Of a stretch of 17,740 bases of DNA, positions 1,957 to 17,740 are shown piece by piece (the first letter of the stretch is position 1; the number at the start of each line of letters is the position of its first letter). The DNA is from Chloroflexota bacterium (GTDB taxonomy: Bacteria; Chloroflexota; Dehalococcoidia; GIF9; UBA5620). The stretch is from positions 1 to 17,740 of the forward strand of contig JAPLHH010000172.1 in assembly GCA_026389735.1 (NCBI GenBank), written 5' to 3'. The position numbers were made by a program, and so were the translations under genes. Under the pieces are notes generated by a model. It made no database searches and was not told the origin of the DNA. It was given only the letters and a program-made list of their open reading frames with translations.

Positions 1957-1963
1957 CAGGATA

Positions 1964-2017: not shown

Positions 2018-2044
2018 GCAGGATACAGACATAAAATGAAACAA

Positions 2045-2114: not shown

Positions 2115-3216
2115 AGCGGGGTGCTCTGGCCTGGGGTGAGGGCACTGGTTGTGCAGCCGGGTAATGCGACGAACGACGGAGGAATGAGGGGACGTCGAGG
2201 CTATCTTCAGCTACACCTCGTAGTAAACGACGCAACTCAGCTTCAGTGGGGACTCCGGCTCCGTATTGAGCGGTGAAACCGGTGGCAATAATGGTGATCT
2301 GTACCTCGTCATCCATTTGCGGATTAAAGACGACGCCGAAGACGATGTTTGCATCTGGGTCGACCGCTTGGGCAATGACTTCCGCAGCCTCATTACACTC
2401 GAACAGTGTGAGGCTGCTGCCGCCGGTAACATTGAATAGTACTCCCTTGGAGCCATTTATGGAAACATCGAGTAATGGGCTGGCAAGGGCAGCTCTGGCA
2501 GCCTCAACAGCTCGGTTCTGGCCGCTGCCTCTGCCTACTGACATCCAGGCAGGCCCGGCGTTCTTCATTATTGACCTGATATCAGCGAAATCGAGGTTGA
2601 TTAATCCTGGTACGGTTACCACTTCGGCAATAGCTTGAACTGCCAGTCGGAGCACATCATCAGCTAGTCTGAAGGCATTGTCTACAGTGGTCTTGGCGTC
2701 ACAAAGCTCAAGAAGACGGTCATTGGGTATGATAACCAGGGTATCTACTTTGTCGCACAGCTGTAGTATGCCTTCCTCGGCTACTTTGTTTCGGCGAGTA
2801 CCTTCAAAACTGAATGGCTTGGTTACGATGCAAATAGTTAAGGCGCCACTCTGTCGGGCTACATCGGCAACAACCGGGATGCCACCGGTGCCAGTGCCGC
2901 CGCCCATTCCCGCAGTGACAAAAATCATGTCGGCACCGGAAATTACCTCATTAATCGTTTGCCGGCTCTCTTCGGCTGCTTCAGCACCAATGGTGTGGTC
3001 GCCACCGGCACCTAGCCCACGTGTCAGCTTCTCGCCCAGCTGGACACGCACAGGGGCTTCAGACAGCGCCAAAGCCTGGGCATCGGTGTTCATGGTGATG
3101 AATTCCACGCCTTTGATGCCTTCACGGACCATACGGGTGATGGCGTTGGAACCACCACCGCCAATGCCTATAGCTCTGATTCGAGCTGGTGCGTTGGAAA
3201 ATGTTGACTTTGCCAT
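2113..3216 (-). CDS. ftsZ: Cell division GTPase FtsZ
   Basis: Tubulin-like GTPase that forms the cytokinetic ring. The 367-aa product has GIGGGGSNA (17-25), the tubulin signature GGGTGTGG (105-112), NTDAQAL (43-49) and the T7 synergy loop NLDFADIRSIM (207-217). The conserved C-terminal peptide LDVPSFLRR (340-348), which binds FtsA, is followed by an unusual 19-residue Pro/Ala/Ser-rich tail ending in QARAPR. The linker between the core and that peptide is only about 20 residues, short for the family. The ATG at 3216 has an AAGGAGG 13 bases upstream, and an in-frame TAA shortly before it excludes a longer protein. It is last in the winged-helix/mraZ/rsmH/ftsA/ftsZ operon, 35 bp after ftsA. Confidence 0.98.
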   Translation of the reverse strand: MAKSTFSNAPARIRAIGIGGGGSNAITRMVREGIKGVEFITMNTDAQALALSEAPVRVQLGEKLTRGLGAGGDHTIGAEAAEESRQTINEVISGADMIFVTAGMGGGTGTGGIPVVADVARQSGALTICIVTKPFSFEGTRRNKVAEEGILQLCDKVDTLVIIPNDRLLELCDAKTTVDNAFRLADDVLRLAVQAIAEVVTVPGLINLDFADIRSIMKNAGPAWMSVGRGSGQNRAVEAARAALASPLLDVSINGSKGVLFNVTGGSSLTLFECNEAAEVIAQAVDPDANIVFGVVFNPQMDDEVQITIIATGFTAQYGAGVPTEAELRRLLRGVAEDSLDVPSFLRRSSHYPAAQPVPSPQARAPR

Positions 3217-3251
3217 CTTTTTTAATTAGCCTCCTTCCTTTTTATGTATTT

Positions 3252-4466
3252 TTAGACACCGAAGAATTTCTTCAGTAATGTCATGAAACCATCAAGGGCA
3301 CCATTCCTCCCTTTTGCTTCCCAGGTTGGTTTACCATGATTCCTCGTTCCCCAGAGAAGGAGCCCAACTCCGGTGGAATGAGCCGGGTCATGGAGGATGT
3401 CAGTGATGCCATACACACCCATAGGCTCACCAATCCTTGCTTGGAGGCGGATTGTTTGCTTGGCTAGAGCTTCAAGGCCAGCTAAATTGGAACAACCTCC
3501 AGTGAGTACTAGGCCAGATGGAGCTATTGAGGCATAGTTAGAGTCAGGCATTTCGAGGAGAATTAGCCTCAGCAGTTCTTCCATGCGGACTTTGATGATA
3601 TTACATAGATCACGGTAGGAAACGCTGTGCCCGTCTTCAACAGTCAGTGTGGACTCTTGATTTTTACTCAGTACCTCAGGATAGACGTTACCATATTTCT
3701 TTTTCATAGCTTCGGCGATTTCAAAGGGTAAACCCAGGCCGATTGAGAGATCACTGGTCACCTGATATCCAGCTACCGGAATGATTGAGGTGTGGTAGAT
3801 ACTGCCGTCTTTGAATACGGCTATATCGGTGGTGCCGCCACCGATGTCAGCCAGGATGACTCCTACCTCTCTTTCTTCTGGTGTCAGTACTGCTTCACCG
3901 CTGGCTAGCGGCTCCAAAATGAGGTCCTGGATTTCGACTCCAATGCTCCGAATACATTTGACCAAATTCTGGACTGAGGATATGGCAGCGGTTATGATGT
4001 GGGTCTCCACATCCAGCCTGAAGCCATGCATACCTACCGGATTCTTAATTCTTTCCTGATTGTCTAAGGAATAGTTGCGAGGTATGGCGTGGAGTATCCT
4101 TCTGTCATCCGGGATATTAACCTGCTGGGCAGAAGACAGGACTCGCTTAAGGTCTTCGTGTCTAACCAAGCGGTCATTGCGTGGTATAGCCACTACCCCA
4201 TGGCTGTTGTGCGAGCTTATGTGTCTGCCTGTGACACCTACATAGGCAGATTCCACTTTTAGCCCGCTTGCCTGTTCAGCTCGCCTCACCGATTCGGCAA
4301 CCGATTCTCTGGCTTCTTCTACGTTGACCACCATACCTTTATGCATGCCATGCGATGGCACGAGACCGACCCCTAAGACCTGTATATTGCCTCCGGAATC
4401 GAGAGTGCCAGTAATGGTGCATATTTTGGTTGTGCCAACATCAATAGCCGAAATGATATTCTTCAT
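3252..4466 (-). CDS. ftsA: Cell division actin-like protein FtsA
   Basis: Actin-fold ATPase that tethers FtsZ filaments to the membrane. The 404-aa product has the phosphate-1 motif AIDVGTTKI (7-15), a SHS2-type 1C region with YVGVTGRHISS (75-85), phosphate-2 DIGGGTTDIAVF (207-218) and the adenosine motif LVLTGGCSNLAGL (around 328). It ends in an amphipathic helix, GFMTLLKKFFGV, the expected membrane-targeting sequence. The ATG has a strong AAAGGAGGT about 10 bases upstream. It lies 64 bp after rsmH. The ftsQ, ftsW and mur genes usually found between these two are absent. The terminal helix argues against MreB or a PilM-type relative. Confidence 0.96.
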   Translation of the reverse strand: MKNIISAIDVGTTKICTITGTLDSGGNIQVLGVGLVPSHGMHKGMVVNVEEARESVAESVRRAEQASGLKVESAYVGVTGRHISSHNSHGVVAIPRNDRLVRHEDLKRVLSSAQQVNIPDDRRILHAIPRNYSLDNQERIKNPVGMHGFRLDVETHIITAAISSVQNLVKCIRSIGVEIQDLILEPLASGEAVLTPEEREVGVILADIGGGTTDIAVFKDGSIYHTSIIPVAGYQVTSDLSIGLGLPFEIAEAMKKKYGNVYPEVLSKNQESTLTVEDGHSVSYRDLCNIIKVRMEELLRLILLEMPDSNYASIAPSGLVLTGGCSNLAGLEALAKQTIRLQARIGEPMGVYGITDILHDPAHSTGVGLLLWGTRNHGKPTWEAKGRNGALDGFMTLLKKFFGV

Positions 4467-4530
4467 CGTAGTGTTTACCTCCTTTAATTTTATTTAAGGT
4501 CAATTTGCCTCCCATGAGTAAGTTTTGTAA

Positions 4531-5469
4531 TTATAAAAGGCGCTCGGCTACTCTAAGCTTGGCGCTGCGACTGCGAGGATTAAGTTTAATTTCGGTCAGA
4601 GATGGCGTGATAGCCTTCTTTGATATTATTTTCAGGCTGGGCATATGCCCACATTGACAAACTGGAGTCTCCGGTGGGCAAAGGCATCCTTTGCTTTCTC
4701 GAATCATGAATTGTTTGACTATGCGGTCTTCTAGCGAGTGGTAGCTGATAACTACCAGCCTGCCTCGGTGGTCGAGGCAATTGACAGTTTGCTTCAGGGC
4801 TGTGGCTAGATTTTCCAGTTCGCGATTAACAGCGATGCGCAATGCCATAAAAGTCCTAGTGGCTGGGTGGATCTTGCCGTGACGGCTGCCGATAGCTTTT
4901 TCTACTACGCTGGCTAGTTGTAGGGTGCTGCTTATCGGGCGGCTCTTTACGATATACCGTGCTATCCGCTTGCTGTAACGCTCCTCACCATAGGTTTTGA
5001 TGATTTGACTTAACTTATCCTCGGGGAGATTATTGACAATATCGGCCGCAGTTAATTCCTGGGCTGGACTAAAACGCATATCCAGTGGTCCATCATGCTG
5101 GAAGCTAAAACCGCGTTCAGAAATCTCAAGCTGTGTGGAGGAGAGACCGAGGTCGAAAAGAATTCCATGTACAGGCAAGAAGTTGTTTTCTCTGCAGATG
5201 GTCTCGATGTTAGCGAAATTGTCATTTATTATGATAGTTGAGCCAATATAGTCGGCTAGTCTGGGCTTAGCTATGTCGATAGCTTCGGGGTCGGCATCTA
5301 TGCCCAGAAGTTGTCCATCAGGCAGAATCTTTTCCAGAATGGCTGAAGCATGCCCACCTGAACCTAAAGTGCAGTCAACATAGCGTTTTCCCGGTTGAGC
5401 TTGTAATGCTTCTACGGCCTCGCTAAGCAGCACTGGTTTATGAATAGGTATAGCCATGGTTAGACTCAT
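4531..5469 (-). CDS. rsmH: 16S rRNA (cytosine1402-N4)-methyltransferase RsmH (MraW)
   Basis: SAM-dependent methyltransferase acting on 16S rRNA C1402 in the ribosomal P site. The 312-aa product has [13 protein letters not shown] near the start, the SAM loop [15 protein letters not shown] (31-45), GIDADPEAI (56-64), [24 protein letters not shown] and [12 protein letters not shown], all typical of the family. A short cysteine-rich stretch ([13 protein letters not shown]) near the C-terminus is also common in RsmH. The start ATG overlaps the mraZ stop as ATGA, implying translational coupling. A second in-frame ATG at 5457 (MAIPIHKP) is possible. Confidence 0.96.
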
Positions 5470-5894
5470 CGCTGTTCCTCAAGGCTTTCTATGATTTGCC
5501 ATAGTTGCTCTTCAGCCAATGTCTTTTCTGAGTTCCAAAAAGTTGGGTTCCATATTTCGATACAATTGTTAGCACCGACTACGACGGCAGTATCACCTAT
5601 TTCAGCGCGATTGCGTAAAATAGATGGCAGAGCTATCCTTCCCTGACCATCGAGCGAAAGGCTGAAGGCTGTACCGAACATAGCCCGGTTCATCGTTCTG
5701 AATTTACTCGATGGCACAGCCTGAGCTGACAAAGTGTCCGCCACCTTGTGCCATTCAGCCGCTGGATAGATGGCGACGCACTTCTCTAGTCCTTTAGTCA
5801 ACACTAATTCACCACCCAGTTCTTGTCTGAACTTAGGGGGCAGAGGTAATCTACCTTTATTGTCGACTTTGTATTCGTATTCGCCTAGGAACAT
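5466..5894 (-). CDS. mraZ: Transcriptional regulator and division protein MraZ
   Basis: DNA-binding regulator of the division cluster, built from two SpoVT/AbrB-like halves. I place the start at the ATG at 5894, giving 142 aa that begin [16 protein letters not shown], the normal start and length of the family, with GGAAG 5 bases upstream. An in-frame TTG four codons earlier (5906) has no ribosome site. The two signature segments are [13 protein letters not shown] (N-terminal half) and [14 protein letters not shown] (C-terminal half). It follows the winged-helix gene by 19 bp and overlaps rsmH by 4. It probably binds the GTGGG array at 6296-6372 to control its own operon. Confidence 0.95.
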
Positions 5895-5913
5895 ATCTGC
5901 TTCCAACTAGTGT

Positions 5914-6279
5914 TTAGGCCAGTACAGCTTCCCCTTCTAGCTGCTTTTCTAGGATCCTTATTTCATTCCAATCTAAGCTAGCTAGTTCTTCGATGTATTC
6001 CTGTGTCTGCGGGTCGCTGGCCAGTGAGTAAGTGATCAGTCCATTGCCATCTTGTTGCTCTTGGAGTACACCTTTTTCGATTAAAGACCTGATTGCTTCT
6101 CTCAAGTTAATCTTGGCGGTGTCTAGGGCGCTAGCAATTGTATAGAGGCTTAGCCTGGCTCGGGGATGCCGTGCCCAAAAGCGGATCAATTGGAGTTCAA
6201 GGTTGGTGCGGCTGTTCTCCTTTAGAAAATGGAACAACTTGCTATTGGCTACTCGATATTGAATGCAATCAATTACCAT
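5914..6279 (-). CDS. Unrecognised winged-helix-like protein, first gene of the division operon
   Basis: I chose the ATG at 6279, giving 121 aa beginning MVIDCIQYRVANSKLF, because AAAGGAGA sits 8 bases upstream. The frame is open further up to 6456, but that extension would run through the promoter and operator array. The middle (about 25-85) reads like a winged helix: helices LELQLIRFWARHPRARL, TIASALDTAKINLREAIRSL, then a wing-like strand pair GVLQEQQDGNGLITYSLA. The tail is an acidic helix with ASLDWNEIRILEKQLEG. I do not recognise a named family. Its place between the MraZ operator and mraZ suggests a co-regulator of division or a nucleoid-linked factor, but that is inference. No signal peptide or membrane segment is seen. 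Confidence 0.75.
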   Translation of the reverse strand: MVIDCIQYRVANSKLFHFLKENSRTNLELQLIRFWARHPRARLSLYTIASALDTAKINLREAIRSLIEKGVLQEQQDGNGLITYSLASDPQTQEYIEELASLDWNEIRILEKQLEGEAVLA

Positions 6280-6295
6280 GATAACTTCTCCTTTT

Positions 6296-6372
6296 ACCAC
6301 TTTTTCCCACTGTTTACCATTATGAACATACTTTACCCACTTTGTCAATACCTTTCCCACCAAATTTCCCAC
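6296..6372 (-). promoter_or_regulatory. MraZ-type operator: six GTGG(G/T)-class repeats in 10-bp register
   Basis: On the minus strand, GTGGG (6372-6368), GTGGG (6360-6356), GTGGG (6340-6336), ATGGT (6320-6316), GTGGG (6310-6306) and GTGGT (6300-6296), each followed by AAA- or TAAA-like bases. Spacings are 12, 20, 20, 10 and 10, so nearly all lie on one face of the helix. Known MraZ operators are direct TGGG-type repeats spaced 10 bp apart in front of mraZ. This array flanks and overlaps the -35/-10 pair and extends into the leader. Confidence 0.8.
6319..6348 (-). promoter_or_regulatory. Promoter of the winged-helix/mraZ/rsmH/ftsA/ftsZ operon
   Basis: Minus strand: TTGACA (6348-6343), an 18-base spacer, CATAAT (6324-6319). 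The predicted start near 6312 leaves a leader of about 33 nt before the ATG at 6279. The promoter lies inside the GTGGG repeat array, so bound repressor would block polymerase. Confidence 0.7.
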
Positions 6373-6527
6373 TATTTGCATAAATTTTTCCGGGTTCTTG
6401 ATTTTAGCCGGGTTGCGTTTCCCAATAGGTAGTGATTTTATTTTAGATAACCTCAATATCTTGTGTCATCGTGGTTAATTGTGCTTATTTTAGGGTGGTA
6501 CTAAAGTATTGGTCGATTTTTGCGGTT

Positions 6528-6555
6528 TTGAGCTTTAGCTTTGGTGTGGTAAAAT
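6528..6555 (+). promoter_or_regulatory. Promoter of the moaB-trmD-rplS-priA-def operon, possibly leaderless
   Basis: TTGAGC (6528-6533), a 16-base spacer, TAAAAT (6550-6555) preceded by TGTGG. Only six bases separate the -10 from the ATG at 6562, so transcription would begin at or next to the start codon. No convincing ribosome site precedes that ATG, which fits a leaderless message. Confidence 0.55.
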
Positions 6556-6561
6556 AGGCAG

Positions 6562-7059
6562 ATGTTAGCTGGCATCCTTGTCATCAGTGATAGGGGGTGG
6601 CGTGGTGAGCGACTCGACAAGAGTGGGCAGGTTGCCAAGGAATTTATCAGCCGGCTGGGCATTGAGGTGGCCAAATATGAGGTTGTGCCTGACGAGGCGG
6701 AGATTATTTCAAAGAAACTTAGAGAATGGTCTGATGCAGTTAGGCTTGACCTTATTGTAACTAGTGGTGGAACTGGATTATCTCCCAGAGATGTCACACC
6801 GGAGGCCACGCTAGCAGTGATTGATAAAATTATTCCTGGTTTGACTGAGGCTATGAGAATGGATACGATGAAGAGAAAGCCTGAGGCGATACTTAGTCGC
6901 GCTGTCGCAGGTAGCCGTGGCAAGTGTTTAATTGTTAATCTTCCGGGCAGCCCTAAGGCGGTGAAGGAATGCCTGGAGGTCATCCTACCTGTTTTGCCTC
7001 ACGCACTAGAGATTCTTGGGGGCAAAACATCTGAATGTGGTCATGATGAGGCTAGTTGA
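6562..7059 (+). CDS. MogA/MoaB-family molybdenum cofactor biosynthesis protein
   Basis: The family binds molybdopterin and, in MogA, adenylylates it for molybdenum insertion. The 165-aa product covers a single MoCF-binding domain: GILVISDRGWRGERLDKSG (4-22), LIVTSGGTGLSPRDVTPEAT (64-83) with the GGTG loop at 69-72, and NLPGSPKAV (126-134). MogA, MoaB and an isolated CinA-type domain cannot be separated with certainty; length and the single domain favour MogA/MoaB. Its TGA is followed at once by the trmD ATG, so it is first in that operon, where many bacteria have rpsP and rimM instead. Confidence 0.85.
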   Translation: MLAGILVISDRGWRGERLDKSGQVAKEFISRLGIEVAKYEVVPDEAEIISKKLREWSDAVRLDLIVTSGGTGLSPRDVTPEATLAVIDKIIPGLTEAMRMDTMKRKPEAILSRAVAGSRGKCLIVNLPGSPKAVKECLEVILPVLPHALEILGGKTSECGHDEAS

Positions 7060-7800
7060 ATGCGCATTGATATCCTGACATTGTTCCCCCAGATGTTTGA
7101 TGGTTTGCTTAGCTGTAGCATTATCGGGAGGGCCACAGAACGCGGCCTGGTTGATATTAAGCTTCATGATATTCGTGCTTATACACATGATAAGCATCAT
7201 ATCGTGGATGACTATCCCTACGGTGGTGGAGCTGGAATGATGCTCAAGCCAGAGCCTATTTTTGAAGCTGTGGAGGGTATCAAGGAGGAACTCGGCTTGC
7301 CATCGGTGTCGACTATTTTGCTCAGTCCACAAGGTCGACTTTTTAATCAGGAGATTGCCCGGAAGCTAGCTGGTTGTCAGAATCTCATTCTTATTTGCGG
7401 CCATTATGAGGGTGTTGATGAGAGAGTGGCCGAGCATTTGGTCAGTGATGAGATTAGCATTGGCGACTATTTACTCAGCGGTGGTGAAGTGGCAGCCATG
7501 GCAGTGGTGGACTGTGTGGTTAGACTGTTGCCTGGAGTGCTTGGCTCTGAGGCATCTTTAGCGGAGGATTCGCATATTGGAGGTCTATTGGAGTATCCGC
7601 AGTATACTCGTCCGGCAATATATCGTGGCTGGACAGTACCTGAAATTTTGCTTTCTGGAGATCACGGTGAGATTGCTCGATGGCGACGCCAGCAAAGCCT
7701 GCTGCGGACTGCGAAGCGGCGTCCGGATCTCATGGAAAAAGCTGTGCTTTCCCCGGAAGATAAGAGACTGCTTAGGGAAGTCTTTGAAATCAAGTTATAG
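7060..7800 (+). CDS. trmD: tRNA (guanine37-N1)-methyltransferase TrmD
   Basis: SPOUT methyltransferase that makes m1G37 next to the anticodon and so prevents frameshifting. The 246-aa product has [13 protein letters not shown] at the start, [16 protein letters not shown] (51-66), SPQG (89-92), the knotted SAM site [10 protein letters not shown] (113-122) and [11 protein letters not shown] (133-143), followed by R155 and LAEDSH with D170 as the probable catalytic aspartate. The C-terminal [11 protein letters not shown] and RPDL motifs are also present. It starts directly on the end of the upstream gene and precedes rplS by 17 bp. Confidence 0.98.
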
Positions 7801-7817
7801 AAGGGATGTAGCTAGAA

Positions 7818-8276
7818 ATGAATGTCAATTCTATCAGCCAAATTAAGGTAAATCCTAACATACCTCAAATTAGCCCCGGCGATACAGTAAGGGTTAGTTT
7901 TAAGGTTAAAGAAGCTAGCAGGGAGCGTGTTCAGACACTGCTTGGACTGGTAGTTCGGGTTAGGAGAGGGGCTAGCGGTGGTAACTTTACGGTTAGACGA
8001 GTTACTTATGGAGTTGGTGTGGAGCACACCTTTCCCTTTGCCTCTCCGTTTTTGGAGAAAGTTGAGGTGGTACGGCATGGCAAGGTTCGCCGTGCCAAAC
8101 TTTATTACATACGCCGGCTCAGTGCCAGAGAGGCACGTCTCAAGGAGAGACGAGAGAAGATGGTGGAAAAAGCTGCTGTTATGGAGGACATGGGTGAAGA
8201 GGGTGAAGTTGAAGAAGCTGTGGCTGAAGAAGCTGTAGAAGAAGCTGCAGATGGAGAAGCTGAAAAAGTGGAATGA
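7818..8276 (+). CDS. rplS: 50S ribosomal protein bL19 with an acidic C-terminal extension
   Basis: Large-subunit protein at the subunit interface. Residues 1-114 match the family: NPNIPQISPGDTVRV (12-26), FTVRRVTYGVGVEHTFP (57-73), SPFLEKVEVVRHGKVRRAKLYYIR (76-99, shown in part) and the basic ARLKERR end. About 38 further residues (115-152) form a Glu/Ala-rich tail not found in the usual ~115-aa protein. Part of it is encoded by repeated GAAGAAGCTG units. The frame overlaps priA by 4 bases (ATGA). An AAGGGA about 11 bases upstream of the ATG is the likely ribosome site. Confidence 0.97.
   Translation: MNVNSISQIKVNPNIPQISPGDTVRVSFKVKEASRERVQTLLGLVVRVRRGASGGNFTVRRVTYGVGVEHTFPFASPFLEKVEVVRHGKVRRAKLYYIRRLSAREARLKERREKMVEKAAVMEDMGEEGEVEEAVAEEAVEEAADGEAEKVE
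8211..8262 (+). repeat. GAAGAAGCTG repeat in the acidic tail of rplS
   Basis: Perfect copies of GAAGAAGCTG start at 8211, 8226 and 8238, with a shorter GAGAAGCTG at 8254-8262. Spacings of 15 and 12 keep the reading frame (Glu-Glu-Ala). The pattern suggests the tail grew by in-frame duplication. Confidence 0.7.
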
Positions 8277-10702
8277 AATATGCGGAAGTGGCGGTCAATT
8301 CGCCTATCGCTCAACGCCGTAGCTTTTGTTATTCAATACCCCCTGAGCTGAAGATTGATGTCGGGCAAGCCGTCTGGGTGCCTTTTGGTTCTAAAACTCT
8401 TCAAGGCATTGTCGTCAAGGTAAGCGATTATCCCTCATTTGAGGTCACTAAGGAAATCAGTGGTCTTATCACATCTTTTCCTTTATTGTCTTTGGCCCAC
8501 CTTGAGGTTGTCTTCTGGTTGAATAAGTATTACCTTTCACCTCTCTTTGATGCTGTGGCCTTGATGTTGCCTCCTGGGTTTGAGCGACGGTTAGCCACTT
8601 TTTTGCAACTTTTGCCAGATCATGTTGATTTATCGCAGCTTAATCCCGAGCAGATACAGGTTATACGTCTTCTTGAAAACAAGGATAGGGTTGACATAAG
8701 AGAATTGGAGCGGAAGTTTGGGAAAAAGAAAACCGAGTCGATTACGCAACAGCTTCTGCGGCGGTGTCTGATGGTGAAAAGCCAACAACTCGAAGAAACT
8801 AAAGTAAAGCCAAAGCTAGTTACTCATTTGAAGCTACAGATTGACCCAGGTGAGGCTGAGGCGGAAGTTATTCGACTGAGGAAAGCTAAAGCTGATAAGC
8901 AAGCAGCGGTTCTCGAGTTCCTGATTAAGCGGCCTCAACCTGTCCCTTTGGCTGAACTCAGGAAGTCTATTGCTTGCCAGAAGGTGGTGATTGAGTCCTT
9001 GAAAAATCGTGGCTTGATTTCTGTGGTGGAGGTTGAGGTCAGGCGTGATCCTTTAGCTCATCTTAGAATTGCTCCGATATTGCCGCCGAAGCTTACTCCA
9101 TCTCAGGAGGCAGCCTTGCAGAGAATTCAAAGTTATATAGCTCAGCTGCACAGGTCACCGTCAGTTTTTCTGCTTCACGGGGTTACAGGCAGCGGCAAGA
9201 CTGAGATTTACCTTCGAGCTTTGGCTGAATTTGTAGCTCAGGGCAAGCGAGGCATTTGTCTTGTTCCGGAAATTGCGCTCACTCTACAGACGATAGAGCG
9301 CTTTGCCTCTCGTTTCCCCGGTCGTGTCGCTGTGATTCACAGCGGGTTGTCTTTAGGTGAGCAGTTTGATGAGTGGCATCGAATAAAGGAAGGTGGATGC
9401 GATGTAGTCATCGGTCCGAGGAGTGCCCTTTTTGCACCTCAGCCTGACCTCGGATTGATTGTTATTGATGAAGAGCATGAGTGGACGTACAAGCAGTCCG
9501 ATAAGTCACCACGGTACCATGCCCGAGATGTGGCTATAAAATTGGCTGAACTTACTGGTGCTGTAGTTATTTTGGGGAGCGCTACACCTGACGTGGAGAC
9601 TTTTTACAGGGCGCAACAGGGCGAGTATCAGCTTGTTGAGCTCAAAGAGCGCATTACGCCGTATGGTCCATCACCTTTGCCAGAAGTTGAGGTTGTGGAT
9701 TTAAGAGACGAACTGAAAGCCGGGCATCGGAGCCTTTTTAGTCGCTCTCTGATTGGAGCCATGACTGAGGCTCTAGCTCACCGTGAGCAGGTGATCTTGT
9801 TTCTCAATCGGCGTGGCACGGCCACCTTTGTTCAATGTCGGGACTGCGGCTTTGTTTTCCGCTGCTCACATTGCACAGCATCTCTTACCTATCACTCGGC
9901 GACAAGGAAGTTAGTTTGCCATCATTGTCGTTATTCCGTTACTCTGCCTGTGGAATGTCCTCAGTGTCTTAGCCATCGCCTCAGATTTTTGGGCATTGGT
10001 ACTCAAAGGGTGGAGGAAGAAGTCAGGCAATTTTTTCCACAAGCTCGCATTCTCCGCTGGGATAGAGATGTAACTTCTGGTCGGCGAGCCCATGAGGAAC
10101 TCTTGACTAAGTTTCGAGCCCATGAGGCTGACGTACTTATAGGTACTCAAATGGTAGCCAAGGGATTGGACTTGCCTCAGATAACATTGGCTGGTGTGAT
10201 AAGCGCTGACACTGGTTTGAATTTACCTGACTTTAGGGCTGGGGAGCGTACTTTCCAACTCTTGTGTCAGGTAGCTGGCAGAGCGGGGCGAGGCTTCACA
10301 CCAGGAAGGGTCATTATACAGACTTATAGTCCAGAGCATTACGCGATAAGGGCAGCGTCAAAGCACGATTATCTAACCTTTTATGCTCAGGAGATAAATT
10401 ATCGTCGCAAGTTTGGTTATCCGCCTTTCAGCCAGTTGGCCAGCCTCACTTTTAGTCATACTAATGACATCGCTTGTCTCAAAGAAGCAGAGAGGATGAG
10501 CCGCTTGCTTGCTGCCGAAAAAGATAGGAGAGGCATGCCTGACTTGCGGTTGATTGGCCCTGTGCCGGCTTTCGTACCTCGGGTTAGAGGACATTATCGA
10601 TGGCAGCTAGTTCTTTGTGGAACTGGCTTGAATGACTTCTTGACGGACATAGCGTTTCCTCGAGGGTGGGTTGTGGACATGGATCCAGTAGGTATGGTTT
10701 AA
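8273..10702 (+). CDS. priA: Replication restart helicase PriA
   Basis: 3'-to-5' superfamily 2 DNA helicase that reloads the replisome at stalled forks. The 809-aa product has the N-terminal 3'-DNA-binding domain (about 1-105, with VWVPFGSKTLQGIVV), Walker A GVTGSGKT (303-310), the DEEH box (399-402), SATPD (436-440), and a zinc module with eight cysteines (C522, C525, C531, C534, C549, C552, C562, C565). Motif V region IGTQMVAKGLDLP (623-635) and motif VI QVAGRAGRG (666-674) follow. All helicase motifs look intact. Its start overlaps the rplS stop, and its TAA overlaps the def ATG by one base, so translation is probably coupled on both sides. Confidence 0.98.
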   Translation: MKYAEVAVNSPIAQRRSFCYSIPPELKIDVGQAVWVPFGSKTLQGIVVKVSDYPSFEVTKEISGLITSFPLLSLAHLEVVFWLNKYYLSPLFDAVALMLPPGFERRLATFLQLLPDHVDLSQLNPEQIQVIRLLENKDRVDIRELERKFGKKKTESITQQLLRRCLMVKSQQLEETKVKPKLVTHLKLQIDPGEAEAEVIRLRKAKADKQAAVLEFLIKRPQPVPLAELRKSIACQKVVIESLKNRGLISVVEVEVRRDPLAHLRIAPILPPKLTPSQEAALQRIQSYIAQLHRSPSVFLLHGVTGSGKTEIYLRALAEFVAQGKRGICLVPEIALTLQTIERFASRFPGRVAVIHSGLSLGEQFDEWHRIKEGGCDVVIGPRSALFAPQPDLGLIVIDEEHEWTYKQSDKSPRYHARDVAIKLAELTGAVVILGSATPDVETFYRAQQGEYQLVELKERITPYGPSPLPEVEVVDLRDELKAGHRSLFSRSLIGAMTEALAHREQVILFLNRRGTATFVQCRDCGFVFRCSHCTASLTYHSATRKLVCHHCRYSVTLPVECPQCLSHRLRFLGIGTQRVEEEVRQFFPQARILRWDRDVTSGRRAHEELLTKFRAHEADVLIGTQMVAKGLDLPQITLAGVISADTGLNLPDFRAGERTFQLLCQVAGRAGRGFTPGRVIIQTYSPEHYAIRAASKHDYLTFYAQEINYRRKFGYPPFSQLASLTFSHTNDIACLKEAERMSRLLAAEKDRRGMPDLRLIGPVPAFVPRVRGHYRWQLVLCGTGLNDFLTDIAFPRGWVVDMDPVGMV

Positions 10703-11205
10703 TGGGTTATAAAATGGCGGTTCGTGCTATTCGTGTTTTGCCAGATCCTGTACTTAGACAAAAAGCCAAAAAGGTAACCATAATTGATAAGTCTGTCCAG
10801 CGGCTTATCGATGACATGATAGAGACTATGAGGGCAGCTTCTGGGGTTGGTTTGGCTGCACCTCAGGTCGGTGTGCCGCTCAGAATAGCTGTGATTGAGA
10901 TACCAGGTAGTGAAGTTATGGTTTTGATCAATCTGGAGATAGTCAAAAGGCAGGGCGAGCGTGTGGTACAAGAAGGCTGCTTGAGCATTCCGGGGTATCA
11001 AGGGGAAGTTAAGCGTTCAGTTTGGATTAAGGTCAAGGCGCAGGATAGACAGGGGCGGAACATCCGTCTCAAAGGGGAGGAGCTCCTGGCTCAAGTTTTA
11101 GAGCATGAGATAGACCATATTAACGGGGTATTATATGTTGACCGTGTGGAGGGGCCGGATAAGTTGTGGAAGTTAGTATCTGAGTCAGGGCAGGAAGAGC
11201 TTTAG
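10702..11205 (+). CDS. def: Peptide deformylase
   Basis: Removes the formyl group from the N-terminal methionine of new proteins, with a bound metal. I start it at the ATG at 10702, which shares its A with the priA stop (TAATG), giving 167 aa. The frame is open upstream within priA, and an ATG four codons later (10714) is also possible. Motif 1 is GVGLAAPQVGV (48-58), motif 2 EGCLSIPG (91-98) with metal ligand C93, and motif 3 QVLEHEIDHINGVLYVDR (131-148) with ligands H135 and H139 and catalytic E136. All are complete. It is last in the operon and convergent with the next gene, 17 bp away. Confidence 0.97.
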   Translation: MGYKMAVRAIRVLPDPVLRQKAKKVTIIDKSVQRLIDDMIETMRAASGVGLAAPQVGVPLRIAVIEIPGSEVMVLINLEIVKRQGERVVQEGCLSIPGYQGEVKRSVWIKVKAQDRQGRNIRLKGEELLAQVLEHEIDHINGVLYVDRVEGPDKLWKLVSESGQEEL

Positions 11206-11222
11206 TTTCTGCCTTCCTTAGT

Positions 11223-12488
11223 CTATCCCTGCCATTCCATTTCGACAACAAATCTGCCAGTTAAGTTTTCCACTTCCACATTATAGAAGCCAGGCGTGTT
11301 TTTGGTTATGCCAAAGGCTACCTTCTGATTTTCACCTGGACCTAGACTAATCTCTTCGGTGCTTTCGACGGCGCCCTTTAATTTAAGTACCATGCTGTAA
11401 TTGCCGGCAAGCTCTCCATTGTTGGTTACTATGGCACTGATGGTAACTTTTCCCCCCTGTTTGACGCGCTCTGGTGCTATGACGAGATTGCTCACGGAAA
11501 AATTCGCTGGGACTAGGGGTATAACGGTAAATGCACCGCCCAAGCCATCTACCTCTGCGTAGTAATCATCTCCAGCATCCTTGATTACCGTGAAAGTAGT
11601 GGATTGGCTTGCTCCGGGAGACAACGTTAGGTCAATTATGTTTTCGACCATGCCATTGATTCGCAATACCACGCTATAGGTGCCTGCCTCTGAGCCATTG
11701 TTGAATACTATGGCGCTGATGGTTATTGGCTCCCCTGATTTTACCTGGTTCGGTGTGATGGTCAGATTGCTCACGGAGAATATAGGTCTTCCGGCGTATT
11801 GTGAGTATGGGGCGGCCATTAATCCTGGTGCCGGAAATTGACCCGGAGCAGGAAATGCTCCTGGAGTCTGGGTTGGCATTGCGGTTGGATATCCAGATTG
11901 TGGGCTGGTTGGGCCAGGGCCTGGGATTGGAGTTGGAATTGGCATTGCTGCTTGCATAGATGGTAACCCTTGTCTATCTTTCTTGCCTTTGATGGCTGCT
12001 CCAGGCTGCTTCTTGCGTGATGGCATGACGGTAAGCAGTATGATTAGCACGAGCAATACGACGATTATGGCGACAATAGCTATCCATATCCCTTTAGGGA
12101 AAATACCCCAGAAGGACGTTTGCCCAGTTACAGTAAAATAATCGCTCGAATCACCTAGCTCTACCACGTAATCATCGGGCGGGCCAGCTTCAACTTCGAA
12201 CGTTACTGTTTGGCTATTCCCAGCATCCAGGGTTACTTCTTGTGTGTCTGTAAACTGAGTCCCCGTAAGTGTGCCGGTTATCTTCAATTCTAGGGTATAG
12301 GTGCCATTTTCACTTCCCGTATTTTTTACTACACAACTTATAGTGATAATATCTCCCTCTTTAGCGGGATTTGGGCTAATCGTTGGGTTTTCTATCTCAA
12401 AGTTAGCTGCTGCGCTGACTGAAGTGGTAGCAGCCAAGACAAGAGCTAGTATCGAGATTACTGGCAGCAGCCAGGTCAGTTTTCTCAT
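11223..12488 (-). CDS. Membrane-anchored protein with three CARDB-type domains
   Basis: The 421-aa product begins with a signal-like segment (1-27: MRKL, hydrophobic core, VSAAA). A first CARDB-like beta domain (about 29-121) follows, then one strong membrane helix (134-155), a basic stretch (PSRKKQ, KGKKDR), a Pro/Gly/Thr-rich linker (about 175-235), and two more CARDB-like domains (about 236-325 and 329-417). The last two are clear duplicates with a 93-residue period (FSVSNLTITPNQVKSGEPIT against FSVSNLVIAPERVKQGGKVT). CARDB domains are cell-adhesion-like Ig folds usually found outside the cell. The function is unknown; an envelope role is inferred. AGGAGG lies 5 bases before the ATG. Confidence 0.8.
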   Translation of the reverse strand: MRKLTWLLPVISILALVLAATTSVSAAANFEIENPTISPNPAKEGDIITISCVVKNTGSENGTYTLELKITGTLTGTQFTDTQEVTLDAGNSQTVTFEVEAGPPDDYVVELGDSSDYFTVTGQTSFWGIFPKGIWIAIVAIIVVLLVLIILLTVMPSRKKQPGAAIKGKKDRQGLPSMQAAMPIPTPIPGPGPTSPQSGYPTAMPTQTPGAFPAPGQFPAPGLMAAPYSQYAGRPIFSVSNLTITPNQVKSGEPITISAIVFNNGSEAGTYSVVLRINGMVENIIDLTLSPGASQSTTFTVIKDAGDDYYAEVDGLGGAFTVIPLVPANFSVSNLVIAPERVKQGGKVTISAIVTNNGELAGNYSMVLKLKGAVESTEEISLGPGENQKVAFGITKNTPGFYNVEVENLTGRFVVEMEWQG

Positions 12489-12597
12489 GCTTGCCTCCTG
12501 TAGTCCTTCATGGTTCAGATGCCTAATACTCTACGCCAAAACGGGCTATAAATCAATAGGCTGAATAGGGAGGCGGTTGGTTTTGGGATTTCTGAGC

Positions 12598-13335
12598 TTA
12601 GTTGTTATTCAGGGGCAAAGTAAAGGCGAAGGTGTTGCCGTTGTTTTCTTTGCTTTCAACCCATATTCTACCGTCGTGTAGCTCTATCAGATGTCGACAC
12701 AGGGCCAGACCTAAGCCTATTCTAGAAATCTGTTTGTCTTTAACCTCTTTGAGCCGGTAGTAAGGCTGGAAGAGTTCACGCTGCTCTTCTGGTGGTATGC
12801 AGGGGCTGCTATCTTGAATTTTGATGACTATGTATCCGGCTTGTTTATCTGTCGATACGGATATGTTGCCGCCATTTGGCGTCAGCTTTGTGGCGTTGGA
12901 TAGGAGATTGTGTAAGACCTGCTCTACCCTTAAAGGGTCAGCAATGATTTTTGAGGAATGTGGTACTAGATTTAAAGTTAAGGATTGGTTTCGGCTGCGA
13001 ACAGCTGGCAACAGCTGGTCGACTACTCTGTAAACAATGGTATCGATATCCGTCGGCGCAAGTTCCAAGTGGAAACCTTCAACTTGTAATTTAACCAAGT
13101 CTAACAGCTCTAAAGTTCGAGCCTCAAGGTAATGAGACGAAGCTAGAATGTTGCTAATTAACTTGGTTTTAGGGTCATCGTGTTGGAGAGCTAACTCTTC
13201 GGCTAACAGACTGGCCGAGGTAGTAATCGAGGTTAGTCGGCTCTTGAACTCATGGGTCAGAAAGGCGACAAGTTCCAACGTTTGCTTGGCATCACTTGGC
13301 AATTGGTTTCTTTGTAGACTGGCCTGGTTTTCCAT
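12598..13335 (-). CDS. Soluble histidine-kinase-like protein (HisKA plus HATPase), degenerate G1 box
   Basis: The 245-aa product has no membrane segment or separate sensor domain. It opens with a dimerisation/phosphoacceptor helix, VAFLTHEFKSRLTSI, with H28 as the likely phosphorylated histidine. The ATPase domain shows the N box HNLLSNATKLTPNGG (142-156, N143 and N147) and G2 box RIGLGLALCRHLIELHDGRI (205-224). The G1 box, normally DxGxG, reads DSSPC (175-179), so ATP binding may be weak or altered. No response regulator is adjacent. It could be an orphan kinase or a partner protein that no longer phosphorylates. The ribosome site is weak (AAGG). Confidence 0.85.
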   Translation of the reverse strand: MENQASLQRNQLPSDAKQTLELVAFLTHEFKSRLTSITTSASLLAEELALQHDDPKTKLISNILASSHYLEARTLELLDLVKLQVEGFHLELAPTDIDTIVYRVVDQLLPAVRSRNQSLTLNLVPHSSKIIADPLRVEQVLHNLLSNATKLTPNGGNISVSTDKQAGYIVIKIQDSSPCIPPEEQRELFQPYYRLKEVKDKQISRIGLGLALCRHLIELHDGRIWVESKENNGNTFAFTLPLNNN

Positions 13336-13347
13336 AGACCTTGGCTA

Positions 13348-13376
13348 ACATTAACAGGTGGTGCTTCGGGTGTCAA
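13348..13376 (-). promoter_or_regulatory. Candidate promoter of the histidine-kinase-like gene
   Basis: A perfect TTGACA (13376-13371) on the minus strand. Two overlapping -10 candidates follow: TAATGT after 17 bases (13353-13348) or GTTAAT after 15 (13355-13350). The predicted start leaves only a few bases before the ATG at 13335. Confidence 0.4.
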
Positions 13377-13515
13377 TACTTCTGCCGGATGATTTTGTAT
13401 TCAGTGCCGGGCTGCTAGGACTAAATTCCCATCCGAGAGGAGACTATTTGGACAGGGCTGACTGGGACAAAATTCTCATAATTTTTCTAAGTGGGCTTGG
13501 TCGGTTTTCCGCAGA

Positions 13516-15945
13516 CTACTTGTCACATTTTACCCATAGCCTATCGCCATCGGTTATGAACTCGATAGTCCCGTGAGTTGAACTCAGGTAGAGTCTGTCA
13601 CTTCCCAGCCGCTCGGCCAGTCTGTCCACTACTTCGCTGTCTGGTAGCCCGAATCTATTGCTGGCGCCTACTGAAATGGCGGCTACTTCAGGACTAACTA
13701 CAGCTAGAAACTCTGGAGAGGTAGAAGTCTGGCTGCCGTGGTGGGCAACTTTTAATACTGTGCTATTCAGATTGGCACGCTGGGCAATAAGGTGCCACTC
13801 AGCCTCACGGCCGATATCAGCAGTGAATAAGAAGCTTACTTTATTCCAGCTTAAGCGTAACACCATACCATTATTATTAATGTCATCAGAAGTATTCTGG
13901 AGCAAAAGCGACGAAGGGTAGAGTATCTCTATCTTTATTCCGTTTCCGAGGTTGACCTCCTGCCCGGCGTGAGCTATTTCGTGCTTGATTTCGTTGTCGT
14001 TAACCAAGTTGAGCCACTGCTGATAAGTGGCTGAGCTGTAGGCTATCCCCGGCTCGATTATCTGTTGCACTTTATACTTCTGGAGTACTTCTATAAGGCC
14101 GGCGACATGGTCGGCCTGGGGCTGGGTTAGAATCACCAAATCGATTGTCCTGTCCCAGAAAGGTAACTTCTTGCCTAACTCCAGACCTATTGCTTGAGGG
14201 CTTGGGCCACCGTCTATGAGAATGTCTTGATGATTTGGCGTTTGGATAAGTATGGCATCTCCTTGCCCTACATCGAGTATGCTTACATGTAGCTTGTCAT
14301 CAGGCATATTTAGAAAGGCAACCCAAACCAGGATAGCGGCAATCAGAAGTGGGGATATGACCCATTTTTTGGGTAGTTTGAAGGCGAGCTTCGAAGCCTT
14401 GCTTGCCGAAGGGCTCAGTTTGGAAGCCGTTAAGTGGAAAAAGTCGACTAATTGCTTTCGGTAATTTATGGCTGCCATGATTACAACCAGTAAAGCGTAG
14501 TAAATCCATATTTGCCAGATGTGGATACTGTCAAACTTAACTGACGAGAATGGCAAGGCATTGAAGGCTTGTACGACGAGAATGAAGTAGCTGAGGAAAA
14601 GCCAGGCTATCCAGCCTAGAGCCTGGGCTAAGAATGGTGCCAAAAGCCCTGCCCCGGCAAGTAGGGCTGAAGTGATGATTATGCCTGGTAAGGCCAGCAC
14701 AGCGAAGAAAGTAGCTGGCAGGCCAACGAAGGAGACAACGTCAAAATAGTAGGCGATGACCGGCCAGGTAGCTAAGATGGCAGCTAAAGTAACTGCAAAG
14801 CTATCGGCGACAAAATTACATAAAGATGCTGCAGTTCCTTCTCTGCCTACGGCAGCGGTTACTCCTTTTCTGCCCCAAGCTTGGAGATAGGGAGAAATAA
14901 AGATGAGTCCTGCCATAGCCAGGAAGCTCAGCTGGAAACTCGCATCCCATAAAACTTGAGGCTCGATTCCCACCATTACTGCTGCAGCGAAGGCCAGGGC
15001 AGTTGAGGCACTACGTTGTCTGCCCAGATATTCGGCTATCAGGAAAAGACTTCCCATGACGGCGCCACGGACTACGGGCGGATTCATGCCCGTAACCAGA
15101 GCATACAGCCAGATGGTCAGAAGAGCCAGCCAGATATAGATGGAGTATCGTTTACCGAAAATCCAGATTCCAGCGGCGAGAAGCATGCCTATGACGATGG
15201 TTATGTTTATACCGGAGATAGCTAGCACATGGGCAGTTCCAGTTCTTGAGAATGCTTGATTTAGAGGATATGGTATGTTGCCTCTTAAGCCGAGGAGAAT
15301 GCCTTGAGCCAGCGAGGCTTGTGGTTCGGGTAAAGCGAGGGACAGGCTCTGGGAAAGGCGATTTCTCAGTGAATAAATCCAAGCCAAAGGCTTAAAACCT
15401 CTGCCTGTATCGAGAGTTTCTATTTCAGGATAATTTATAACCGAATAAATTCCTTGCCGCGCTAGATAGCCTTTGTAGTCGAAGTCGTCAAATTGCGGTG
15501 GTGTTTCCAGCTTGCCGGTTACTCTCAATATATCCCCGTAGTGATATTCTTGATATCTGGGCACGCGTATTAGAGCTTTCCCTGATATTTCCTTTTTTGC
15601 GCCGTTTATTTGTATCTCACTGGCTGATAGCTGAAGGATAGAAGTTGTGTTCCCGGCCTCTGGTTCAGTGCATACCATTCCCTCAATTTCGGCCGTTCCC
15701 TTGTCGTTGTAGAATTGTAGATGCTGCTCATTTATTACGGGCAGGCTTGATTGGAGGCGGATGCAACCGCCAAGTAAAGCAAAAAGGCAGAATCCCGCTA
15801 TAAGCAGGTGTTTCTTATACTGCAATAGGAAAGGGATGAGACACAGGGGAAGAAACCCTATAAAAACAATACCCCAGGGCAGGGCTATTTTTGAGCCCAA
15901 GTAGATGCCTGTCACCCAAGCGGCGCTGAGGTAAATAAGCGTCAC
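13516..15945 (-). CDS. comEC: ComEC/Rec2-type DNA uptake channel with degenerate metallo-beta-lactamase domain
   Basis: Inner-membrane channel that imports single-stranded DNA in natural transformation. The 809-aa product has two N-terminal membrane helices, a DUF4131-like OB region (about 70-180), a multi-helix competence domain (about 195-500) with HVLAISGINI (239-248), and a C-terminal metallo-beta-lactamase-like domain (about 551-809: LDVGQGDAILIQT, TADIG at 708-712, HHGS at 735-738). The metal motif normally written HPDADH reads QPQADH (608-613), and the later GHP reads GLP (766-768). The start is a GTG at 15945 with GAGG 12 bases upstream; an in-frame TAG a few codons before it excludes a longer protein. 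It lies 7 bp after comEA. Confidence 0.95.
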   Translation of the reverse strand: MTLIYLSAAWVTGIYLGSKIALPWGIVFIGFLPLCLIPFLLQYKKHLLIAGFCLFALLGGCIRLQSSLPVINEQHLQFYNDKGTAEIEGMVCTEPEAGNTTSILQLSASEIQINGAKKEISGKALIRVPRYQEYHYGDILRVTGKLETPPQFDDFDYKGYLARQGIYSVINYPEIETLDTGRGFKPLAWIYSLRNRLSQSLSLALPEPQASLAQGILLGLRGNIPYPLNQAFSRTGTAHVLAISGINITIVIGMLLAAGIWIFGKRYSIYIWLALLTIWLYALVTGMNPPVVRGAVMGSLFLIAEYLGRQRSASTALAFAAAVMVGIEPQVLWDASFQLSFLAMAGLIFISPYLQAWGRKGVTAAVGREGTAASLCNFVADSFAVTLAAILATWPVIAYYFDVVSFVGLPATFFAVLALPGIIITSALLAGAGLLAPFLAQALGWIAWLFLSYFILVVQAFNALPFSSVKFDSIHIWQIWIYYALLVVIMAAINYRKQLVDFFHLTASKLSPSASKASKLAFKLPKKWVISPLLIAAILVWVAFLNMPDDKLHVSILDVGQGDAILIQTPNHQDILIDGGPSPQAIGLELGKKLPFWDRTIDLVILTQPQADHVAGLIEVLQKYKVQQIIEPGIAYSSATYQQWLNLVNDNEIKHEIAHAGQEVNLGNGIKIEILYPSSLLLQNTSDDINNNGMVLRLSWNKVSFLFTADIGREAEWHLIAQRANLNSTVLKVAHHGSQTSTSPEFLAVVSPEVAAISVGASNRFGLPDSEVVDRLAERLGSDRLYLSSTHGTIEFITDGDRLWVKCDK

Positions 15946-15952
15946 GTAATTT

Positions 15953-16462
15953 TCAGTCCTCTAGAGTTATTAAGTCTCTTATCGTGTCCAGGGTGGTGTT
16001 GCCTATTCCTCTGACATTGAGTAAGTCCTCGATTCTCTTGAAAGGCCCGTGTTGGTTGCGGTAGTCAACGATAGCTTGGGCTCTGTCTGGTCCGATTCCG
16101 GGCAGAACATCCAGTAGCCAGGCCTCAGCCCGGTTTAGGTTTATCCTTTGGGGCTGAGAGACTTCGCCGGTCTTGGGCACATAAATCTTGATTTTGCCTG
16201 TATCTGCGTCTGGTATAAGTCCGGCAGCCTGAATAAGAGCCTCTATGGTGTCATCTTCTCTTAATGGGTAGAAACCTGGGTTAGCCACAGCACCATCGAT
16301 GTAAATCTCTCCTTTGTACTGAACTGGCGCAGTTTGGGATAGGGAAATTTCGACAGGTTTATGGCTGCTTTGTTTGACTGCCAGCACAATGCCACCGCTG
16401 ACGAGGCTTACCAGTAAAAAGGCGATAATGAATAGCCAATATTTATTTAAATTACTTGACAT
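15953..16462 (-). CDS. comEA: ComEA-type DNA-binding competence protein
   Basis: Membrane-anchored receptor that binds incoming double-stranded DNA. I start it at the ATG at 16462 (169 aa) because AAGGAG lies 6 bases upstream; an earlier ATG at 16495 has its AAGGAG touching the codon. An N-terminal anchor helix (8-29) is followed by a SLBB-like domain (about 51-96: GEIYIDGAVANPGFYPL) and two helix-hairpin-helix motifs (about 107-168: INLNRAEAWLLDVLPGIGPD and LLNVRGIGNTTLDTI). It forms a two-gene unit with comEC, 7 bp downstream. The repeat cluster begins about 40 bp upstream of its start. Confidence 0.94.
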   Translation of the reverse strand: MSSNLNKYWLFIIAFLLVSLVSGGIVLAVKQSSHKPVEISLSQTAPVQYKGEIYIDGAVANPGFYPLREDDTIEALIQAAGLIPDADTGKIKIYVPKTGEVSQPQRINLNRAEAWLLDVLPGIGPDRAQAIVDYRNQHGPFKRIEDLLNVRGIGNTTLDTIRDLITLED

Positions 16463-16502
16463 AATAAACTCCTTACTTCTATTGTTTAAGAGCATCTCCT
16501 TT

Positions 16503-16692
16503 TGTCATTGCGAGGCGCAGAGTGCCGTGGCAATCTCGACGGGCAAATATGAGATTGCTTAATTGTCACCCTGAGCGATAGCGAAGGGTCTCTAGATTCT
16601 TCGCTACGCTCAGAATGACAGGAAGCGAAGGGCTCGCAATGACAGGAAGCGAAGGGCTCAGAATGACAGGAAGCGAAGGGCTCGCAATGACA
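16503..16692. repeat. Composite palindromic repeat (MITE/REP-like) with 12-bp terminal inverted repeats
   Basis: The ends are exact inverted repeats: TGTCATTGCGAG (16503-16514) and CTCGCAATGACA (16681-16692). Inside lies a smaller inverted pair, CAATCTC (16531-16537) with GAGATTG (16551-16557). A second imperfect palindrome spans 16564-16620 (TGTCACCCTGAGCG paired with CGCTCAGAATGACA). This looks like one intergenic repeat family interrupted by another. No transposase is encoded, so it would be non-autonomous. It ends 4 bases before the remaining smpB frame. Confidence 0.8.
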
Positions 16693-16694
16693 GG
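16614..16694. repeat. 24-bp tandem repeat, 3.4 copies
   Basis: Units at 16614-16637, 16638-16661 and 16662-16685, then a 9-base partial copy (16686-16694). Each unit starts AATGACAGGAAGCGAAGG. The last two bases alternate GC, AG, GC, so the array mixes the two palindrome types of the surrounding repeat. It probably grew by slippage or unequal recombination. Confidence 0.85.
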
Positions 16695-16696
16695 CT

Positions 16697-17032
16697 GTGG
16701 TGAATATTCGTGATGCCTATGCTAGGCCCGAAGGGGGTGAGCTGTGGCTGGTCAATGCGCATATCGCTGCCTATCAAGCTGGCAGTCATTACAATCATGA
16801 GCCGAACCGACCGCGTAAGCTACTATTGCATCGTCGCCAGATTGATGAGTTGGCAGGCATGGTAACCCAGAAAGGTTTGACTTTAGTGCCCTTGAAGTTG
16901 TATATTAAAAGAGGAACTGCCAAGTTGGAGTTGGGTGTGGCTCGAGGCAAGAGGCTTCATGACAAGCGTGAGGCGATGGCCCGCCGGGAGACGGAGAGGG
17001 AGATAGAGCGGGCGATGAAGAGAAAGAGTTAA
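16697..17032 (+). CDS. smpB: SsrA-binding protein SmpB, N-terminally truncated
   Basis: SmpB carries tmRNA to stalled ribosomes. The frame starts at GTG and gives 111 aa that match the later two thirds of the family: VNIRDAYARPEGGELWL (2-18), NHEPNRPRKLLLHRRQID, KGLTLVPLKLYIKRGTAKLELGVARGKRLHDKRE (shown for identification in parts) and a basic tail ending AMKRKS. A full protein has about 150-160 residues. The first 48 or so, with the first strand and helix of the OB-like fold and the GTEVKSLR-type tmRNA-binding segment, are absent. An in-frame TGA (16688-16690) and the composite repeat lie directly upstream, and no good ribosome site is seen. It is either a broken gene or an assembly artefact at the repeat. 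It lies 23 bp before ssrA. Confidence 0.85.
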   Translation: MVNIRDAYARPEGGELWLVNAHIAAYQAGSHYNHEPNRPRKLLLHRRQIDELAGMVTQKGLTLVPLKLYIKRGTAKLELGVARGKRLHDKREAMARRETEREIERAMKRKS

Positions 17033-17055
17033 AGGCACGTTAAAAACTTAGTTTT

Positions 17056-17401
17056 GGGGGCGCGTGGCTTCGACAGTGGAAGGCCTACAGGATAGCAGGT
17101 CGAGGTGCCATCTACCTCGTAAAACAGGTGGCAAAAGACAACTGCCGAAGCAGTTCCAATTGCAGCCTAATTAGGTTGCACATCCAACCTGACCTCACCC
17201 CGATGGGTTGGGATTGGGTGACGAAAAGTCGGGGCGCTCCAACCTTGATGTCGATGGAGGTTGGCTAAGAATTATCGACTGGCCCAGCCAGTTTTGGTCA
17301 GCAAAGGCTGGCTAGGTGAGATAAAAGAGCTGACTAAGCTTGTAGCAGATTCTGGCAACCTTCTTCTGGACGGGGAGTTCAACCCTCCCCCGCCTCCACC
17401 A
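17056..17401 (+). ncRNA. ssrA: Transfer-messenger RNA (tmRNA)
   Basis: Rescues stalled ribosomes as both tRNA and mRNA. The 5' end GGGGGCG (17056-17062) pairs with CGCCTCC (17391-17397, one G-U), followed by A and an encoded CCA (17399-17401). The T arm is GGGAG-TTCAACC-CTCCC. Pseudoknot 1 is visible: CGAGGT/ACCTCG (17101-17106 with 17114-17119), whose loop GCCA pairs with TGGC downstream. The tag frame reads (T)AEAVPIAA and ends at TAA 17168-17170; the resume codon is probably GCC 17144 or ACT 17141. The stop lies in the helix TGCAGCCTA/TTAGGTTGCA, as expected. The 346-nt length is normal and the gene looks intact. Confidence 0.95.
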
Positions 17402-17410
17402 CGGATTTTG

Positions 17411-17441
17411 AAGCTAAAATCTAACAGGTTTTAGCTTTTTT
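17411..17441 (+). terminator. Intrinsic terminator of ssrA
   Basis: A 9-bp perfect stem AAGCTAAAA/TTTTAGCTT (17411-17419 with 17429-17437), a 9-base loop and a run of T to 17441. It starts nine bases after the tmRNA CCA. Confidence 0.88.
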
Positions 17442-17460
17442 GTATTTAGTCGGTTGTTGG

Positions 17461-17478
17461 AAAAGGGTTATTAAACCC
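17461..17478 (-). terminator. Candidate weak terminator for the minus-strand PAS gene
   Basis: On the minus strand, GGGTT-TAAT-AACCC followed by TTTT (17478 down to 17461). The stem is only 5 bp, so this is tentative. It faces the gene ending at 17568. The 17442-17567 gap otherwise shows only AT-rich sequence and the inverted CTCCCCGTCC copy. Confidence 0.35.
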
Positions 17479-17567
17479 CCCACCTCCCCGTCCATTTTTC
17501 GTTTTATAATTTATCACTACTGGTTATTTTGTCTAAGGATTTCATCATTTCTATTCTATATTATTAA

Positions 17568-17740
17568 TTACTTCTTGTTATCAACATCATAGACAATGCT
17601 GACGAATTCCACGTTAATCAACTTACCATCATTCCTTTCGAGTGGTAAGTCTTCATAACGCATATATTTTTTACTCTGTAGTTCCGTAAAAGATTGTTTA
17701 CTTGTCGCGACATCTTTGGAAAGACCAATTTCCCAAAGTT
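17568..17740 (-). CDS. PAS-domain protein, C-terminal fragment, cut by window edge
   Basis: The last 57 codons of a minus-strand gene that begins beyond the window. The translation includes LWEIGLSKDVATSK and RYEDLPLERNDGKLINVEF and ends YDVDNKK then TAA (17570-17568). These are typical of the second half of a PAS domain in sensor proteins. In such proteins the text normally runs on into a VIQCNIRDITERK-like strand and a kinase or other output domain. Here the stop falls just before that strand, so the protein is either unusually short or truncated. Base use is more AT-rich than to the left, suggesting foreign or island DNA next to ssrA. Function unknown. Confidence 0.7.
   Translation of the reverse strand, partial: LWEIGLSKDVATSKQSFTELQSKKYMRYEDLPLERNDGKLINVEFVSIVYDVDNKK

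Follow-up and report, generated by a model that had tools for sequence, protein, structure and literature searches.

An smpB gene lacking its start beside a complete tmRNA gene in a Chloroflexota contig, with a candidate ssrA promoter inside it

In the window (the whole 17,740-nucleotide stretch of DNA analysed here), smpB carries a deletion relative to the nearest genome compared, while the flanking genes are in place and the tmRNA gene ssrA is complete. The reading we hold to be rather probable is a recent, local 192-bp deletion that turned smpB into a pseudogene and left ssrA intact and likely transcribed from within the remnant. According to this reading, a single event at the array of repeats that separates comEA from smpB, a place prone to indels, would have stripped smpB of its upstream region, its start codon and its first 41 codons. 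What is left would be a pseudogene, and any protein still made from it would be without the first barrel strand and helix; the untouched ssrA would probably still be transcribed from a promoter within the remnant. We infer that cells carrying the deletion exist and have no working SmpB, that trans-translation is off in them, and that ssrA is driven by the embedded promoter. Broken trans-translation, as put forward in the original prediction, seems the best reading for this DNA, in which smpB is without its start, first strand and first helix.

The nearest genome compared was an uncultured Chloroflexi MAG (G001), with which 59% of the sampled 31-letter words of the window are common. The window is collinear over bases 1–17401 with its contig 28 (VGNX01000028.1, Chloroflexi bacterium isolate M_DeepCast_200m_m2_208; source presumably Lake Tanganyika), with identities of 97.1% over 1–8134, 91.3% over 7635–16476 and 94.2% over 16700–17401. 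The comparison of smpB-ssrA in close relatives, which had been proposed as a check, showed the order comEA, repeat, intact smpB and ssrA in G001. Of the window's other ORFs, 16 were compared with this genome; every one aligns, 15 along 96% or more of its length and rplS to residue 118 of 152, so that smpB alone is beheaded (gene names except smpB and ssrA are our reading of the ORFs). The left flank is formed by a comEA-like gene (15953–16495, reverse strand), which aligned by tblastn to G001 over its residues 7–180 of 180 with 89.7% identity; G001 has the same neighbour there.

Two genes of the window, encoding a CARDB-like protein (11223–12488, 75% amino acid identity) and comEC (13516–15945, 84%), diverge from G001, while the other 15 ORFs are 90–99% identical at the amino acid level. 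The stretch 15501–15996 is closer to G004 (92%) than to G001 (84%). Combined, this divergence and the likeness to G004 suggest recombination. At the other end, positions 17402–17740 are unlike G001, where a selD-like gene follows ssrA. A 56-residue frame on the reverse strand of this end (17571–17738), PAS-like by eye, gave no Pfam match at E 0.1.

In the alignment with the G001 locus (L001), position 1413 jumps to 1606 exactly at the junction 16699/16700 (forward strand) of the window. The missing 192 bp (L001 1414–1605) consist of 69 bp upstream of smpB and 123 bp of coding sequence, that is, 41 of 151 codons (27%), and no remnant of them is visible in this alignment, as had been predicted. 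The loss itself, originally described as the 5′ third of the gene and about 140 bases, is thus borne out, although its coding part is slightly smaller than one third. The predicted start near residue 49 holds in the numbering of a longer profile (position 48 of NF003843), which corresponds to V42 in 151-residue relatives. The two deletion ends share zero bases of homology relative to G001; since this genome is 94% identical here, 1–2 bases of end homology may have existed in the true parent. Ends without homology would offer an assembler no common word at which to cross over.

The junction sits outside the repeat, though the repeat adjoins the breakpoint; the V42 codon, with which smpB now begins, comes six bases past the array. 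After the last GACAG of the repeat, the window retains GCTGTG, the same six bases as in the orthologous copy of G001. With one mismatch allowed, 40 different sequence contexts were found at repeat tails in the DNA analysed, and only the window and the G001 locus have this one. Because these orthologous bases are retained and the flanks are adjacent in G001, the join is local; an assembler hopping between repeat copies would carry the flank of another copy, which disfavours a join of distant loci. The deletion is known from one sequence, and its junction pattern was not found in viral_contigs or in the 124 loci searched.

The spacer between comEA and smpB contains a palindromic repeat with 24-bp tandem units (16552–16694), present in G001 with one 24-bp unit fewer. 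The composite palindromic repeat predicted just upstream of the smpB frame was recovered as three overlapping copies with 24-bp spacing (16608–16694) and inverted arms at 16503–16514, matching 16633–16644 and 16681–16692. The first of these arms lies in a 75-bp stretch (16477–16551) that is absent at the orthologous place in G001, where the alignment stops at 16476 and restarts at 16552. Compared with G001, the spacer thus shows three indels, two that add 75 bp and one 24-bp unit and a third that removes 192 bp, and it appears to be unstable, indel-prone ground. Across relatives, the repeat series at this locus ranges from none (G004 and G007) through one palindrome (G016) and a palindrome with tandem tails (G001) to more in the window. 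Similar repeats are dispersed: the comEA-to-ssrA DNA as query gave at least 51 matches in G001, at least 55 in G002, at least 17 in G004 and 4 in G003, counts that include the locus's own pieces and, in G001, G002 and G004, derive from the best 40 candidates scored in each.

What is left of smpB is an open frame at 16697–17032 (forward strand, 111 residues) that opens with GTG-GTG. It matches PF01668 over profile positions 36–143 of 143 (E 3.6e-41) and NF003843 from position 48 of 156, above the curated cut-offs of both. Compared with these SmpB families, the first strand and helix are missing, so that the match, which begins inside the profile, does not cover the whole OB fold. The first residue of the remnant corresponds to V42 of 151-residue relatives, and the remnant accordingly runs from the V42 codon to the stop (16700–17032, forward strand), without codons 1–41; the ATG that normally starts the gene is gone too, as is a −10-like box (GRTAnAAT) upstream of it. 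This box is present in all six relatives with a located smpB start, out of ten tried. In a model of the relative P0001, helix 11–14, strand 18–27 and helix 31–39 all fall inside the missing 41 residues, and the N-R-K-A-Y-H-D-Y stretch of SmpB is gone with them. Modelling of the truncated product gave a pLDDT of 70.4 and a pTM of 0.51, against a pTM of 0.68 for full-length P0001 (best pLDDT 78.4, the other four models at most 42.1), weak evidence as both are of modest quality. Lacking its start, the −10-like box, the first strand and the first long helix, the smpB gene is almost certainly null.

The remnant nevertheless bears the marks of a maintained gene. Over 101 codons, 17.5 synonymous and 3.5 nonsynonymous changes separate it from G001, an uncorrected per-site ratio of 0.06, and the same ratio for pairs among seven relatives is 0.05–0.20. 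This suggests that smpB was under constraint until recently and its loss is young, or that the deletion is not in all cells.

In line with the prediction of a 5′-truncated smpB directly beside an intact tmRNA gene, ssrA (17056–17401, forward strand) is complete, matching Rfam RF00023 over positions 1–374 of 374 with 151.3 bits. ARAGORN read the tag AEAVPIAA followed by a stop, also found in L001, L005, L010, L024, L025 and L028; of 46 sequences submitted to this program, 28 yielded a tmRNA, and Rfam then found several that it had missed. A terminator-like hairpin (17410–17438, forward strand) follows the gene. No difference from a standard tmRNA gene (RF00023) was seen in its completeness or in its tag, which is like that of close relatives, but its promoter appears to lie within smpB.

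This candidate promoter, the sigma-70-like TTGACT-18-TATATT (16877–16906, forward strand), lies 149 bases upstream of ssrA; the scanned stretch has four promoter-like sites, this one included, where 0.9 would be expected. In 28 relatives and the window (31 relatives tried; L002, L016 and L017 left out), the codons forming the hexamers are kept as TTG in 29/29, ACT in 25/29, TAT in 28/29 and ATT in 28/29 sequences, while four of the six spacer codons are free to vary, GTG and AAG being the exceptions. Of 130 equally spaced patterns in these 29 sequences, the promoter pattern has the lowest synonymous variation, a level reached in 1 of 100,000 degeneracy-matched resampling draws; in an 11-sequence version of the test it was the lowest of 81 patterns (0.0002). 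The −35 and −10 hexamers are thus conserved beyond coding need.

An exact match to the promoter inside smpB was present in six of ten genomes searched (G001, G004, G005, G007, G010 and G016), and in five of these six it is the sole exact match of the genome. As for the remaining four, G015 and G023 carry TTGACC, the smpB of G002 is cut before the site and G003 is without smpB. Three further genomes (G006, G014 and G018) also have the promoter. In a survey covering 41 of 45 relatives, the more distant L051–L053, L056 and L058, with ssrA adjacent, were without it and L054, L055 and L059 had it in part, which indicates that the promoter is clade-specific. On this pattern of conservation, ssrA is probably transcribed from a promoter inside smpB that survived the deletion. 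Judged by titles, the literature searched held no report of an ssrA promoter within smpB.

Across the order, smpB was found in 64 of 84 genomes with 65 matches, 63 of them full length (from profile positions 1–3 to 141–143). The two short matches (G002 and G010) are cut by contig ends and were rejected as true truncations, so that none of the 65 matches in the 84 genomes is a beheaded smpB inside a contig. Twenty of the 84 genomes gave no smpB match; among those with completeness of 90% or more and contamination of 5% or less, this was 3 of 26. Two apparent losses were set aside. In G003, a single contig from the same genus, which is also without ssrA and resembled a parallel loss, the pieces are joined by 100-base N runs and the comEC piece ends at such a join. 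In G021, ssrA begins at base 77 of its contig and smpB is cut off.

The protein search scored 8000 candidates, of which 7999 passed; among the best 120 of these, two are shorter than 145 residues, P0032 (110 residues) and P0082 (129 residues). P0032 is an SmpB 85% identical to that of the window and starts at the codon of the remnant; its contig is at most 2420 bases long, and it may be a second truncation case or a mere contig end. P0002 is a full-length SmpB of 151 residues, 95% identical to the remnant, whose sequence is not that of the window. It carries the source mark '-', as do the window proteins, which could indicate a full-length form in the same source as the window.

The main rival to a deletion carried by the dominant genome is that the contig here follows a chimeric read, an amplification artefact or a minority variant, a smaller but substantial chance. 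The deletion has been seen once, smpB is kept intact across the order, the remnant shows no decay, repeats and inverted arms lie close by, and the source mark of P0002 fits such an origin. Moreover, the loss should be costly. A review (PMC8012679) reports that, once trans-translation is missing, ArfA is essential in E. coli and ArfB in Caulobacter. No ArfB-sized gene was found in the four genus members searched (G001–G004, 77–96% complete), where all seven release-factor domain matches are frames of 349–364 residues, the size of RF1/RF2. NFACT_N, the domain of RqcH, was likewise found in none of the four. This search comprised the release-factor domain and NFACT_N. With no backup detected by it, a fixed loss should carry a cost, which weighs against fixation. 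On the other side, the deletion ends share no homology, and two more indels within this spacer suggest that it is naturally unstable.

The deletion could also be real while a second, full-length smpB elsewhere in the genome keeps trans-translation intact. One of the 64 genomes with smpB, G012, does have two matches, but the other 63, G001 included, have one, and we regard this arrangement as quite improbable. Still less probable is a minimal SmpB of 110–111 residues that is produced and functional, a possibility for which the original prediction had allowed. Its frame is open and constrained, a GTG start has AGG nearby, and P0032 starts at the same codon, but that protein may just begin at a contig start. 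Against a working protein stand the loss of the first barrel strand, the first long helix (both placed by the P0001 model) and the N-R-K-A-Y-H-D-Y stretch, the removal of the native start and −10-like box, and the lower pTM of the truncated model, with both models of modest quality. Finally, that assembly merged two distant loci through a multi-copy repeat, the alternative first raised, is hardly credible despite the many similar repeat copies in G001 and G002, since both flanks are adjacent in G001 and the junction lies beyond the repeat with the locus's own six bases kept.

A defective smpB with ssrA kept is a situation shared with cases in Table 3 of Hudson, Lau and Williams 2014 (PMC4131195), where the defect is a truncation into the β-barrel, as for Tremblaya, or a frameshift; the window has such a truncation beside its retained ssrA. 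By the yardstick of that paper, a remnant without a barrel strand is probably inactive. The two truncation cases given there come from highly reduced genomes and have smpB cut at both ends, whereas the window has an N-terminal deletion, and smpB is intact in the relatives nearest to it, G001 and G004 (about 2 Mb). According to the same authors, the listed frameshifts could stem from sequencing errors. By title, searches on smpB loss and on trans-translation in Chloroflexota returned nothing on this case beyond that paper, and a search on residue E31 of SmpB returned nothing on SmpB.

The event is of an ordinary kind, a deletion that breaks a gene at a spacer rich in repeats, but in this gene it is rarely seen. 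It has the look of a recent knock-out, or of a DNA copy gone wrong, and not of a novel type of rescue system. Should the deletion prove to be just a variant or an artefact, the lasting result would be the apparent ssrA promoter embedded in smpB in this clade. We consider it improbable that a lineage with a normal-sized genome is truly without functional SmpB, keeps ssrA transcribed from the remnant promoter and has neither ArfB nor RqcH. Were it so, either tmRNA would work unaided by SmpB or the cells would have a rescue factor not yet described, and such a genome, with a beheaded smpB and neither an ArfB-sized nor an RqcH gene detected in the genus, would provide a natural test of tmRNA activity without SmpB.
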